A DNA stretch of 43,413 nt from Terriglobia bacterium (lineage in GTDB: Bacteria; Acidobacteriota; Terriglobia; Acidiferrales; UBA7541), in the NCBI GenBank assembly GCA_020072765.1, contig JAIQGD010000059.1:1-43413 (forward strand). The letters are read 5' to 3'. Position 1 is the stretch's first letter, and every line of letters starts with the position of its first letter. The translations under genes were made by a program, and so were the position numbers. The notes below the pieces were generated by a model, which saw only the letters and a program-made list of their open reading frames with translations, ran no database searches and had not been told where the DNA came from. This document shows positions 12,917-43,413 of the stretch, piece by piece.

Positions 12917-13324
12917 CTATCGGCGAGTTCTTTCGGCACGCCGGCCGCCGAAGGCGTGGATGGTCCTAGTCCCAGCCACGGGTTCACCGCCATGCCAGAC
13001 GCCCTTCGGTATGAAGTATTCCTCACCGGCTCTGACCGGAATGCGCCGGCCATCGATGATCAACGTGTAACAGCCCTGCACGACAACAAAATACTCGTCG
13101 TAGTCATGGACATGCGGCGCGGATGCCGCGGTCTCACGGCACGTCCAAAACGCCATCTGATTTCCGCCCACGCCGTCAAAAACGTAACCTTCAACTCCGG
13201 GGGTGGCCTGACTGCTCACCGCAATCTTGTTCGCGGGATGCTTCATGAAGTCCGGGAAATCGTCCACCGTCCCTCCTTCACCTCTTACATGAATCTGGTC
13301 AGTGGCCACTTCCCACGAGCTCAA
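12917..13324 (-). CDS. small cupin-domain protein
   Basis: A 135-residue protein with a single cupin barrel. Metal-binding motif 1 is HVHDYDEYFVVVQG (His71, His73, Glu77) and motif 2 is IPKGVWHGG (His111), a complete His3-Glu set for a mononuclear metal. The frame begins with a TTG (13322-13324) that overlaps the lexA stop as TTGA, suggesting translational coupling; GTG six codons in is an alternative start. Substrate is unknown: small stand-alone cupins may be isomerases, dioxygenases or sensors. Being directly downstream of lexA, it would be co-transcribed and thus co-induced with the SOS repressor. Confidence 0.85.
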   Translation of the reverse strand: MSSWEVATDQIHVRGEGGTVDDFPDFMKHPANKIAVSSQATPGVEGYVFDGVGGNQMAFWTCRETAASAPHVHDYDEYFVVVQGCYTLIIDGRRIPVRAGEEYFIPKGVWHGGEPVAGTRTIHAFGGRRAERTRR

Positions 13325-13944
13325 AACTTTCTCAAGACGCCGACCACTTTGCCCTGAATCTTGACGTCGGTGGCCGGCAGGATGATCGGCGCCATCTGGG
13401 AATTGGCGGGCTGCAGTCGGATTTTGCCGCCGGCTTCGCGGTAGAAACGCTTGACGGTGGCTTCGTCCTCACCGACCAGCGCGACGACGATTTCTCCCGG
13501 GTTGGCGACCTGGGTCTGCTCGACCACGATGTAATCGCCGTCGAGGATGTGATCGTCGCGCATGGATTCGCCCTTCACCTGCAGGACGAAGCTGTTCTGG
13601 CCGCGCGCAAAATCGGCCAGGGAAATGGTCTCGCGGTCTTCGACGGCCTCCAGGGGACGCCCGGCCGCGATGCGTCCGGCGAGCGGCAGCTCCACCACAT
13701 GCCGGTCGAGAATCTCTTCGCGCACCGGCTTGGGAAGCTGCATCACTTCGATGGAGCGGCTCTGGTTGTAGCCCCGGCGCACGTAGCCCTTCTTTTCCAG
13801 CGTCGAGAGATGCTTGTGCACCGTCGCCAGCGAAGTGAGCTTCAGGGCGTGGGCGATCTCCTCGAAACTCGGGGCATAGCCGTTTTTGTTGAGGAAGCCC
13901 ACCAGGTAATTCAGCACTTCCTTCTGCCGCTTCGTCAGTGTCAT
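13321..13944 (-). CDS. lexA: LexA repressor (SOS regulator)
   Basis: The 207-residue product has an N-terminal winged helix (MTLTKRQKEVLNYLVGFLNK, PSFEEIAHALKLTSLATVHKHLSTLEKKGYVRR) and a C-terminal S24 autoprotease domain. The cleavage bond is Ala89-Gly90 (LPLAGRIAAG), the nucleophile Ser127 in KGESMRDDHI, and the general base Lys165 in EATVKRF. RecA-stimulated self-cleavage should therefore be functional. The ATG is preceded by GGGAGGGAA. Its promoter spacer is filled by a direct repeat, TTCGCC-N5-TTCGCC, also found at recA and uvrD, proposed here as its own operator (autoregulation). The cupin gene overlaps its stop. Confidence 0.97.
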   Translation of the reverse strand: MTLTKRQKEVLNYLVGFLNKNGYAPSFEEIAHALKLTSLATVHKHLSTLEKKGYVRRGYNQSRSIEVMQLPKPVREEILDRHVVELPLAGRIAAGRPLEAVEDRETISLADFARGQNSFVLQVKGESMRDDHILDGDYIVVEQTQVANPGEIVVALVGEDEATVKRFYREAGGKIRLQPANSQMAPIILPATDVKIQGKVVGVLRKF

Positions 13945-13992
13945 CGCAGTTCCCTCCCTGAGGCACAGCGGTGCCGGGTGCTAGCGTCGCAA

Positions 13993-14021
13993 AGTGTAGG
14001 CGAATTAAAGGCGAAAGTCAA
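13993..14021 (-). promoter_or_regulatory. lexA promoter with putative LexA operator in the spacer
   Basis: Minus strand: TTGACT (14016-14021), 17-bp spacer, TACACT (13993-13998). The spacer (13999-14015) is exactly TTCGCCTTTAATTCGCC, a direct repeat of TTCGCC with an 11-bp period. A protein bound there would block RNA polymerase. The same arrangement occurs at 42031-42047 (uvrD), and a degenerate form at 22030-22046 (recA). Confidence 0.8.
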
Positions 14022-14406
14022 TGGAGAGGTGATTAGTGATTGGTGAGCGGTGATTGGTGATTCATGACTCGTAATTCGTGTCCCGGTATCGCGCATAAAC
14101 CGCGCACCGGGATCCCGGTTCGTGATCCGCACCGGGAATTCGTGCGGCGACTTTCGGGCTCCGCCTTTTTTCTGTGCAAGGCGCGCGGCTGCAGTCTTCA
14201 CTCTCCTTTACCTCCTCTGCTTCCTCCGCTTCCTCTGCCTCCTTCTCCTCGCGCGGCAGATACTCGAAACGCCACAACTGCGGCCAATTGGCATTTTCCT
14301 GAGTCCGCGGCTGTGCTACCCTTGTAAAAGTGGAGCGGATTGCCGCTGACGTTTCGGCGGCAATCTCTGGGTAACCTATACGGCTCCACATCCATCTATA
14401 ATACCC
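14022..14406. repeat. lexA-korA divergent intergenic region with low-complexity repeats
   Basis: This 385-bp gap contains no gene that I can support. It holds a degenerate tandem run of GTGATTGGTGA-like units (about 14029-14075), a perfect 14-bp palindrome ACCGGGATCCCGGT (14106-14119), a C/T-only rich tract of repeated CCTC/TTCC units (about 14205-14255), and a perfect inverted repeat GATTGCCGC/GCGGCAATC (14338-14346/14357-14365) 41 bp before korA. The inverted repeat is a candidate operator or 5' hairpin for korAB. Confidence 0.6.
14397..14402 (+). promoter_or_regulatory. TATAAT box 4 bp before the korA start (possible leaderless transcript)
   Basis: A perfect TATAAT ends 4 bp before the korA ATG and no Shine-Dalgarno sequence is present, so transcription could start on or next to the start codon. 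No convincing -35 is seen. Confidence 0.35.
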
Positions 14407-20821: not shown

Positions 20822-21919
20822 CTAACGCGCGGGGCGGCCTGGCGCGGCGGCAGCAGCTGCGGCAGCCGCCTTCACCGCGGGTTTCTCGGCTTCGGCGGAC
20901 GCTTTCTTGGCGTCGTCCAGCGGCCGCGTGTTGAGACCCAGCACCTTGCGCAGATCGTGCTCGATCTTGTCGCGGACGTCGGTGTGCTCGCGCAGGAAGA
21001 CGCGCGCATTTTCGCGGCCCTGGCCGATGCGCTCGCCCTTGTAGGAAATCCACGTGCCCGATTTTTCGACCACGTTTTTGGCCACGCCGAGATCCAGCAG
21101 GTCGCCTTCCTTGGAAATTCCTTCGCCGTAGATGATGTCGAACTCCGCCTCGCGGAACGGCGCGGCGACTTTGTTCTTCACGATCTTGGCGCGGGTGCGC
21201 GAGCCAACCACGCGGTCCCCTTCCTTGATGGACTGAATGCGGCGGATATCCACGCGCATCGAGGCGTAAAACTTCAGCGCGCGGCCGCCCGTGGTGGTCT
21301 CGGGATTGCCGAACATCACGCCGATTTTTTCACGGATCTGGTTGATGAAGACCAGGCAGGTGTTCGATTTGTTCACGATGGCGGTGAGCTTCCGCAGCGC
21401 CTGCGACATCAGCCGCGCCTGCAAGCCCATCTGCGGGTCGCCCATGTCGCCCTCGAGTTCGGCCTTGGGAACCAGCGCCGCGACCGAGTCCACCACGATG
21501 ATATCCACGGCACTGGTGCGGATCAGCGCCTCGGCGATAGCCAGGGCCTGCTCGCCGTTATCCGGCTGCGACACCAGCAGATTATCCACATCCACGCCCA
21601 GCTTGCGCGCGTAGTTGGGATCAAGCGCGTGCTCGGCGTCGATGAACGCCGCCTGTCCGCCCAGCTTCTGCGCTTCGGCGATCACATGCAGCGTCAGCGT
21701 GGTCTTGCCGCCCGACTCCGGGCCGTACACTTCGATCACCCGGCCGCGCGGGAATCCCCCGACGCCCACCGCCGCGTCGATCGAGATCGAGCCCGTCGGA
21801 ATCACGTTCACGGGGACCAGCACGTCCCGGCTCCCCAGCCGCATGATCGAGCCCTTGCCGTAATCCTTTTCAATTTGCGAGATTGCGATTTCCAGATTTT
21901 TTGTTTTTTCGTCTGTCAC
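20822..21919 (-). CDS. recA: RecA recombinase
   Basis: 365 residues, starting at a GTG (21917-21919) after GAGGTG. The Walker A motif GPESGGKT is at 66-73, and the Walker B region is [27 protein letters not shown]-binding loop residues are in [26 protein letters not shown]. The C-terminal end is an unusual Lys/Ala-rich tail with a run of eleven residues that are nearly all alanine. RecA filaments carry out strand exchange and stimulate LexA self-cleavage. The promoter overlaps a degenerate copy of the direct repeat found at lexA and uvrD, consistent with SOS control. Confidence 0.98.
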
Positions 21920-22017: not shown

Positions 22018-22046
22018 ATAGTAGCATGAGGCGAAGAAAAAGCAAA
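22018..22046 (-). promoter_or_regulatory. recA promoter overlapping a putative LexA operator
   Basis: Minus strand: TTGCTT (22040-22045), 16-bp spacer, TACTAT (22018-22023) with an upstream TGC (extended -10). The 17-mer TTTGCTTTTTCTTCGCC (22030-22046) matches the lexA/uvrD direct repeat: perfect in the downstream half TTCGCC, 4 of 6 in the upstream half, with the same N5 spacing. Confidence 0.65.
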
Positions 22047-42030: not shown

Positions 42031-42068
42031 TTCGCCTTAGATTCGCCCGCGGAAAACTCTGCTAAGAT
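42031..42068 (+). promoter_or_regulatory. uvrD promoter region with putative LexA operator
   Basis: TTCGCCTTAGATTCGCC (42031-42047) differs from the lexA element only in the N5 spacer. An extended -10, TGCTAAGAT (TAAGAT at 42063-42068), follows 15 bp later, so the operator would overlap the -35 region. The implied start near 42075 rules out the in-frame ATG at 42067 and leaves the ATG at 42106. Confidence 0.7.
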
Positions 42069-42105: not shown

Positions 42106-43413
42106 ATGACACGCACCGCCGATTCGCAGGAAGCCACGGGACTGAACGCCGAGCAGCGCGCGGCGGTCGAGCACGGCGAAGGGCCGCTACTCGTCGTCGC
42201 GGGCGCGGGCACCGGCAAGACGCGCGTCATCACCGAGCGTATCCGCCGCCTGCTCGAAGCCGACTCCGAGCTGGCCGGCGAACACATCCTCGGCCTGACC
42301 TTCACCAACAAGGCCGCGGGGCAGATGAAGCATCGCGTGGTGAAGGCGGCCGGCGAGCGCGCCGAAGGCGTGTGGCTCAGCACCTTTCATTCGTTCTGCC
42401 TCGAGAAAATCCTGCGCGCGGCCAATCCCGATATCCAGCCGCTCGACGACATCGACCACCGCATTCTTCTGCGGCGAAACATCGCCGAACTCGATTTGGT
42501 GATTTTCCGGCGGCTGGCGGAGCCCGCGGAGTTCCTGAAGGATTTCGCCGCGTTCTTTTCGCGCTGCCAGGACGAGCTGGTCACTCCGGACGATTACCAG
42601 CGCTACGTCGACGGGCTGCGCCGCGCCCACGACGCGCGCAAGGCCGCGCTCGAACCCGACGCCCGCCACGCCGCCGAGGAGGAGATGGCCCGGCAGGAGG
42701 AGCTGGCGCGCGTCTATCGCGTGAGCGAGCGCCTGCTGCGCGAGCGCAATCTCTCGACCTTCGGCGCGCAATTGCTGCAGGCGGTCGAGCTGCTGCGCGG
42801 CGATGCCGCGCTGCTCGAGCGCATGCGCGAACAGTACCGCTACATTCTCGTCGACGAGTTTCAGGACACCAATATCGCGCAGCTCGAGCTGCTCTGGCTG
42901 CTGGCGGGCGACCGCCGCAACATCTTCGCCGTGGGCGACGACGACCAGGCCATCTACCGTTTCCGCGGAGCGTCGTTCGGCAGCTTCACCATCTTCCTGG
43001 AACGCTTCTGCGGGCCCGCCCATCCAAAAGGCAATCCGAAGGGCGATACCAAGAACCAAGCGAACGCTAAACCGTTCGTCTCGCTTTCGCAGAATTACCG
43101 CTCGACGCAGCGCATCCTGCGCGTGGCGGGCGAAATCATCGCGAACAACGAACGTTCGCCGTTCCTGCCGCCCAAAAAGCTGACTACGCCGAACCCCGAA
43201 GGCGACAAGATCCGCGTGGCCGAATTCGCCACGTTCGACGAAGAGGCCCACTGGGTCGCCTCGGAAATCGAGCGCCTGCACGACGCGGGCGTCGCGTGGC
43301 GCAGCTTCGCCGTCCTCTACCGCAAGCACGTGCACCGCACGCAGCTTCTCGACGCGCTGCGCCGCCGGCGCATTCCCTTCGTGATCCGGAAATTCTCGAT
43401 TCTTTCGAGCACG
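42106..43413 (+). CDS. uvrD: UvrD/PcrA/Rep-family superfamily 1A DNA helicase, N-terminal part (cut by window edge)
   Basis: 436 residues are visible from the ATG at 42106. The Q-motif/entry is GLNAEQRAAVEHGEGPLLV; Walker A is AGAGTGKT (32-39); motif Ia is LGLTFTNKAAGQMK; then TFHSFC; Walker B and motif II are ILVDEFQDTN; motif III is FAVGDDDQAIYRFRGAS; motif IV is SLSQNYRST. These define a 3'-5' repair or replication-restart helicase; the choice between UvrD, PcrA and Rep needs the missing C-terminus. A short polar insert (about KGNPKGDTKNQANAK) precedes motif IV. A hairpin (GCGCCTG/CAGGCGGC) lies just before the start. The upstream direct repeat suggests SOS induction, as known for uvrD in other bacteria. 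Confidence 0.93.
   Translation, partial: MTRTADSQEATGLNAEQRAAVEHGEGPLLVVAGAGTGKTRVITERIRRLLEADSELAGEHILGLTFTNKAAGQMKHRVVKAAGERAEGVWLSTFHSFCLEKILRAANPDIQPLDDIDHRILLRRNIAELDLVIFRRLAEPAEFLKDFAAFFSRCQDELVTPDDYQRYVDGLRRAHDARKAALEPDARHAAEEEMARQEELARVYRVSERLLRERNLSTFGAQLLQAVELLRGDAALLERMREQYRYILVDEFQDTNIAQLELLWLLAGDRRNIFAVGDDDQAIYRFRGASFGSFTIFLERFCGPAHPKGNPKGDTKNQANAKPFVSLSQNYRSTQRILRVAGEIIANNERSPFLPPKKLTTPNPEGDKIRVAEFATFDEEAHWVASEIERLHDAGVAWRSFAVLYRKHVHRTQLLDALRRRRIPFVIRKFSILSST

Follow-up and report, generated by a model that had tools for sequence, protein, structure and literature searches.

A TTCGCY direct repeat upstream of lexA, recA, and uvrD as the predicted LexA operator of Terriglobia

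The window analyzed here, the whole stretch of 43,413 nucleotides, is contig 101 of the host genome (G000; 3.78 Mb in 152 contigs), which belongs to an acidobacterium of the class Terriglobia, and carries lexA, recA, and, at its end, a uvrD/pcrA-type helicase gene (Table 1). These had been named as three SOS genes in the original prediction; NCBIfam models confirm the identities of the first two (LexA, 211 bits; RecA, 551 bits), while the UvrD/PcrA-type helicase, cut by the window end, scores below the full-length cut-off. The LexA protein belongs to TIGR00498, scoring 211.4 bits against a cut-off of 110.95 over profile positions 3–202 of 203. Ala94-Gly95, Ser127, and Lys165 are invariant across the eight rows of LexA alignment A2; we take the first pair to be the LexA cleavage site and the latter two to be the catalytic pair. 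A structural model (mean pLDDT 76, pTM 0.50) places Lys44 on a predicted helix spanning residues 39–51, and a PDB search with this model ranked LexA structures first, the DNA complex 3jso included. Alignment to E. coli LexA is gapless across the DNA-binding domain, so that residues 44 (here Lys) and 40 correspond to E. coli positions 45 and 41, respectively. Among named genomes, the best LexA matches are to Acidobacteriota, many of them Terriglobia/Acidobacteriaceae (including Terriglobus roseus and Acidipila rosea), with weaker matches to Gemmatimonadota, Riflebacteria, Phycisphaerae, and others.

Table 1. Predicted operators, promoter-like elements, and associated genes in the window
Feature	Position	Strand	Remark
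Predicted LexA operator of lexA, TTCGCCTTTAATTCGCC	13999..14015	-	Fills the 17-bp promoter spacer; kept upstream of lexA across the class
-35-like hexamer TTGACT of lexA	14016..14021	-	T, T, G, A are the commonest letters there in 130 aligned sites
-10-like hexamer TACACT of lexA	13993..13998	-	Sequence reading; 130-site alignment
Possible third half-site TTTGCG, a further 11 bp on	13988..13993	-	Suggested by a 2-mismatch match at 13988-14004
lexA, recognition helix SLATVHKH with Lys44	13321..13944	-	Ala94-Gly95, Ser127, and Lys165 present
Predicted LexA operator of recA, TTTGCTTTTTCTTCGCC	22030..22046	-	Left half-site is the -35-like hexamer
-10-like hexamer TACTAT of recA	22018..22023	-	17 bp from TTTGCT
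recA	20822..21919	-	NCBIfam
Predicted LexA operator of uvrD/pcrA-type helicase gene, TTCGCCTTAGATTCGCC	42031..42047	+	
uvrD/pcrA-type helicase gene from likely ATG	42106..43413	+	Start probable; gene cut by window end

All three elements of the original prediction were recovered at their positions and strands. The pattern TTYGCYNNNNNTTCGCC (TTYGCY-N5-TTCGCC) occurs exactly in the window at these three sites only, before lexA, recA, and uvrD, against a chance level of 0.05 on average and 1 at most in 100 dinucleotide shuffles; allowing two mismatches leaves it hardly enriched (31 matches vs. 22.9 expected). As proposed, the lexA element exactly fills the spacer between TTGACT and TACACT, and the recA element overlaps the -35 region, its left half-site TTTGCT being itself -35-like; at uvrD, a -35 beneath the box is plausible. 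The claim that the element keeps one orientation relative to the gene applies to lexA, recA, and uvrD, but a fixed orientation can be rejected as a general property, as the box is reversed before dnaB and imuA-like genes. Degenerate GTGATTNGTGATTGGTG-like repeats lie just upstream of lexA at window positions 14030-14080, and similar short repeats are found near lexA in L069 and L495.

The host genome as a whole contains 16 exact TTYGCY-N5-TTCGCC sites, compared with 1 for the reversed control. Three of the 16 fall inside coding ORFs that by eye resemble rubrerythrin, atpA, and mfd, and probably reflect chance; others look real, namely one 39 bp ahead of an imuA-like gene, one 6 bp ahead of dnaB, one preceding a small ORF, and a pair of sites preceding a response-regulator-like gene. 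Across the host and 60 relatives, the refined pattern TTCGCYTTWNNTTCGCC is present in 52 of 61 genomes, with 189 sites against 11 for the control; the window's own family accounts for 148 sites against 7 (37 genomes, host included). The enrichment asked for alongside the original prediction is seen at both scales with these exact patterns, which have sites before lexA, recA, and imuA-like genes. The pattern TTCGCYTTNNNTTCGCY is present in 140 of 161 genomes of the class Terriglobia, including 214 sites vs. 22 control in the 31 genomes of this set that belong to the window's family and 21 vs. 3 in family f9 (12 genomes), and is not enriched in family f5 (1 site vs. 4 control; 11 genomes). Shuffles and reversed-pattern controls lead us to reject chance or a repeat artefact as the origin of the element.

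Of 15 other genomes of the window's family whose recA locus was examined, 13 have a perfect box that starts 104–194 bp before the gene; 11 of these 13 boxes read TTTGCTTTTT[CG]TTCGCC. Outside the family, none of 15 recA loci had a perfect box within 250 bp, five of them belonging to f5 and f9, where other LexAs occur; a class-wide recA box was thus not found. In Gemmatimonadota, TTCGG-N6-TTCGG was observed at recA: four of five named genomes have it exactly, and the remaining one agrees at 9 of its 10 letters.

Annotation of 106 motif loci, in part through representatives, extends the predicted regulon. These comprise the 16 from the host (two of which are one place), 30 returned by the TTCGCYTTWNNTTCGCC scan of the 61 genomes, and 60 picked from its matches after setting aside those already known at lexA; the set holds motif-bearing loci only. 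A repair or replication gene adjoins the box in 51 of the 106, some loci being counted twice: dnaB in 15, an imuA-like gene or recA in 14 (two recA), lexA in 9, an Hrq1-like helicase in 4, a DinB-family gene in 4, uvrD in 3, UDG in 2, and Ku, Nfo, and another DinB-like gene (so judged by eye) in one each. The other 55 showed no recognized repair gene. The ImuA-like protein falls below the curated ImuA cut-off (46.5 vs. 150 bits). At dnaB, the reversed box lies mostly within about 15 bp of the start codon (15 loci: L011 and 14 others); as an essential replication gene encoding the replicative helicase, dnaB is an unusual SOS target.

The letters of the box were examined at 130 lexA sites from genes encoding Lys44 LexAs outside the Gemmatimonadota and Riflebacteria rows, nearly all from Acidobacteriota; rows lacking the core or too near the start codon were left out, and the TTCG letters were themselves selected for. 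Base 5 is C in 94% and 98% of the two half-sites and base 6 is a pyrimidine; in the first half-site, these two positions have an information content of 1.6 and 0.9 bits. The linker is T-rich (T7 and T8, 92% each; T9 and T10, 72% each). TTGA borders the box on its upstream side (82%, 72%, 61%, and 52%) and a TANANT-like hexamer on its downstream side; the box thus commonly fills the promoter spacer at these sites, as it does in the window.

Taken together, the sites with their conservation and placement, the adjoining repair genes, the cleavage residues of LexA, and the dependence of the box on its recognition helix (below) make it almost certain that the TTCGCY direct repeat, read here from sequence, serves as the operator for LexA, the SOS repressor. 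On two TTCGCY half-sites in like orientation, 11 bp (one helical turn) apart and joined by the T-rich linker, an uncut LexA dimer would occupy a single face of the DNA, covering the promoter spacer or the -35, with its two DNA-binding domains placed to suit a direct repeat. LexA so bound would keep RNA polymerase off lexA, recA, and uvrD, as well as the imuA-like gene, dnaB, and others; upon DNA damage, RecA filaments would stimulate LexA to cut itself, relieving repression and turning these genes on. The direct-repeat SOS operator of the original prediction is strongly supported by the genome-wide enrichment, the class-wide position at lexA, the repair regulon, and the helix dependence.

It might instead be argued that the box is the published GTTC-N7-GTTC element of Alphaproteobacteria and A. 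capsulatum, with no specificity of its own, and that TTCGCC is an accident of the host genome. A. capsulatum LexA reportedly binds GTTC-N7-GTTC and stems from Alphaproteobacteria (a finding attributed to Mazon et al. in 2006). That box is likewise a direct repeat of 11-bp period with a TTC core before lexA, and the probable A. capsulatum lexA promoter, GTTCGGTTTTTGTTC, contains an exact GTTCN7GTTC. The 130 sites share with the GTTC-N7-GTTC class the direct repeat of TTC half-sites at an 11-bp period; however, the conserved G before each TTC, which the published A. capsulatum consensus is said to stress, is absent from the class-wide TTCGCY-TTTTN-TTCGCY, with G preceding the first TTC in only 24% of sites (0.09 bits) and the second in 19% (0.21 bits), compared with 94% and 98% for C5. 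The probable A. capsulatum genome (G251), with GTTCGGTTTTTGTTCGCT before lexA, also encodes a LexA with the SLATVHKH helix; in the tree, this protein falls among other Terriglobia LexAs, and its clade includes those of Terriglobus, Acidipila, and L103 (SH-aLRT 100). These data render the argument improbable; the box published for A. capsulatum is apparently a single case of the element found throughout the class, for which the leading G is not defining.

Direct-repeat recognition by LexA has precedents. Two papers give GTTC-N7-GTTC as the alphaproteobacterial LexA box (PMC3323433, PMC8565304). A third, with reference to work on A. capsulatum, Patescibacteria, and Verrucomicrobia, considers that recognition of direct repeats seems to have arisen on several separate occasions, and describes a direct repeat, TTACACATATTTTWTACATA, for LexA of Balneolaeota (PMC7739468). 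The Balneolaeota element resembles the Terriglobia box in being a direct repeat for LexA, but its letters are unrelated; the alphaproteobacterial box shares the 11-bp direct repeat and TTC core but differs in its conserved flanking bases. The recognition helix of alphaproteobacterial LexA differs as well. The Bacillus-type LexA palindrome, CGAAC-N4-GTTCG, also contains TTCG within its half-site GTTCG, but as an inverted rather than a direct repeat. The distinct LexA specificity originally proposed is thus upheld in its conserved bases, TTCGCY rather than GTTC, but not in its direct-repeat architecture, which was already known. Among the titles and abstract openings covered, which lie mostly outside the subscription literature, no description of the box in Acidobacteriota or Gemmatimonadota was found; the strongest novelty lies in defining the box across the class, in seeing it in additional phyla, and in the rules linking residues to bases that are considered below.

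Presence of the box upstream of lexA depends on the helix of the encoded LexA. Among the first 70 lexA loci, an exact TTYGCY-N5-TTYGCY lies within 260 bp in 45 of 51 with an HKH helix and in 0 of 19 with other helices. For a broader survey, 228 LexA genes with enough upstream sequence were de-duplicated to 215, residue 44 was assigned by alignment, and TTCG-N7-TTCG was sought in the 200 bp upstream with base 5 unused, at least 7 of the 8 letters counting as a core (a level that letter shuffles reach in about 7%). A core is present upstream of 142 of 146 Lys44 LexAs, the four without being L073, L146, L192, and L195, and upstream of 43 of 48 Glu44 LexAs; the remaining five are all from Phycisphaerae and have another helix, VT[VI]FEH. 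Asp44 (1 of 8) and Gln44 (1 of 11) LexAs, helix types of the same class, remain near the shuffle level in the same 200 bp, and the single Arg44 and single Ala44 LexAs have no core there. In the Riflebacteria records, two so named and one from Ozemobacter, which we count as Riflebacteria, all three LexAs have TTCGCCTTTT[GA]TTCGC[CT] upstream.

The two families set apart in the genome counts can be read against their LexAs. All 8 f5 LexAs examined (11 genomes in the family) carry an IYPATVQDH-type helix, and their genes instead have a palindrome around ACCGnAC-N4-GTnCGGT, identified by eye. Primary LexAs of f9 contain Gln44 within the helix SAQAIQQH, several with a palindrome around AGAC..GTCT upstream (also by eye). 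Family f9 seemed an exception, having a Gln44 LexA yet 21 sites, and a second LexA was sought there. In the 7 of 12 genomes examined, this second LexA carries SLATVHKH in all 7 and has the direct repeat upstream in all 7. Family f9 thus holds two LexA paralogues with unlike helices and operators (L495-L501; L050-L053, L057, L066, L114).

These patterns bear on the proposal that another DNA-damage regulator, such as an OmpR/PhoB-like response regulator, binds the box and that LexA is merely one of its targets. Direct repeats of 11 bp suit several regulator classes, OmpR/PhoB-like response regulators among those that bind them, and 11 motif loci, all among the 55 with no recognized repair gene, have a response-regulator-like gene after the box (L015 and L016 being one place). 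However, both the presence and the letters of the box track the LexA helix, within one class and between the two LexA copies of f9, leaving such a regulator a very unlikely explanation. An origin as a promoter or spacer element, or by chance, has negligible probability: the repeat coincides with the promoter spacer at lexA, but occurs in both orientations, directly before the start codons of dnaB and imuA-like genes, and at 189 sites against 11 for the control in 61 genomes. The response-regulator-like genes match PF00072 below its cut-off (L015/L016, L027, L312, L316, L323, L328, L340, and others), and some of these loci have two boxes 32–33 bp apart, or about three helical turns.

With LexA as the predicted binding protein, base 5 of the half-site tracks residue 44 almost perfectly. 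The 142 cores upstream of Lys44 LexAs have base-5 pairs CC (127), TC (8), CT (4), TT (1), CA (1), and GC (1), with no GG, whereas the 43 upstream of Glu44 LexAs have GG (40) and GC (3), with no CC. In a wider set, 59 Glu44 sites have GG (50), GC (5), TG (2), AG (1), and AA (1); Gln44 (one each of TT, CC, and GG) and Asp44 (GG and TC) are mixed. Both types occur within Gemmatimonadota, where 5 Lys44 LexAs accompany a TTCGC first half-site (second half: C in 3, T in 2) and 42 Glu44 LexAs accompany G at base 5 of the first half-site; when 36 Glu44 sites of this phylum are aligned, G stands at base 5 in 100% and 94% of the two half-sites. In Patescibacteria, the Lys44 LexA of L467 is found with TTTGC..TTCGC, while its Glu44 relatives have mostly TTYGG. 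A further residue may act on base 4: CACC-N7-CACC (e.g., TTCACCTTTTGTTCACC) lies within 150 bp of 11 of 14 LexAs with Asn40 and K-H at 44–45 and of 0 of 84 other LexAs of the second sample, such that Asn40 LexAs show G changed to A at base 4 and retain Lys44 and C5. SYGTVYKH helices accompany [TA][AC]CGCC-like repeats, by eye. Chemistry fits an arrangement in which Lys44 would face the G opposite C and Glu44 the C opposite G.

Counts across 61 Gemmatimonadota genomes, which include those with Lys44 LexAs and use a variable gap that counts some sites twice, give 546 TTCGG repeats vs. 101 control; TTCGC repeats also exceed their control there (328 vs. 173), so the reversed control underestimates chance in these genomes, by up to about twofold. 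Second and third LexA copies of Gemmatimonadota (13 examined) have other helices and no direct repeat. Trees of LexAs from outside Alphaproteobacteria were built with the helix columns removed, the second taking in the 44 of 98 second-sample loci that reach the TTCG core, and changes between Lys and Glu at residue 44 were counted. The best tree has three such changes, and its well-supported branches yield one independent pair. These numbers are too small for a sign test to reach significance, and the Lys44/Glu44 rule for base 5 is suggestive rather than proven.

On balance, we lean toward TTCG-N7-TTCG as a widespread, perhaps old, operator design common to Acidobacteriota, Gemmatimonadota, Riflebacteria, and Patescibacteria, modulated by a code in which Lys44 would specify TTCGC, Glu44 TTCGG, and Asn40 TTCACC, and in which the A. 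capsulatum box would be native. If so, that box would not in itself be evidence for an alphaproteobacterial origin of lexA, and the argument in print that A. capsulatum acquired its lexA laterally merits a second look. LexA is a classic example of a regulator that is itself conserved while the site it binds has shifted repeatedly; a site that can be read across four phyla beside the recognition helix offers testable residue-to-base rules. It also yields predicted SOS regulons for Acidobacteriota and Gemmatimonadota, with unusual targets such as the replicative helicase gene dnaB.

Several additional elements were observed beside the box or beside other LexAs. In Patescibacteria, L405, L407, L409, L414, L423, and L456 combine a SKNAVAKL-like helix with a palindrome-like candidate box around GGTGAACGATCGTTTACC, identified by eye. 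Two small protein families start about 12–17 bp from the box (L043, L342, and L348; L037, L039, and L349); representatives of both returned no Pfam match, and the families are candidates for new SOS proteins. In genome G014, TTCGCCTTTTGTTCGCC recurs at three loci (L332, L336, and L338), each time 3 bp in front of one of a set of related ORFs. At L332 this ORF belongs to the TnpB family (193 bits); the predicted LexA box seems to be carried by a mobile element in this genome.
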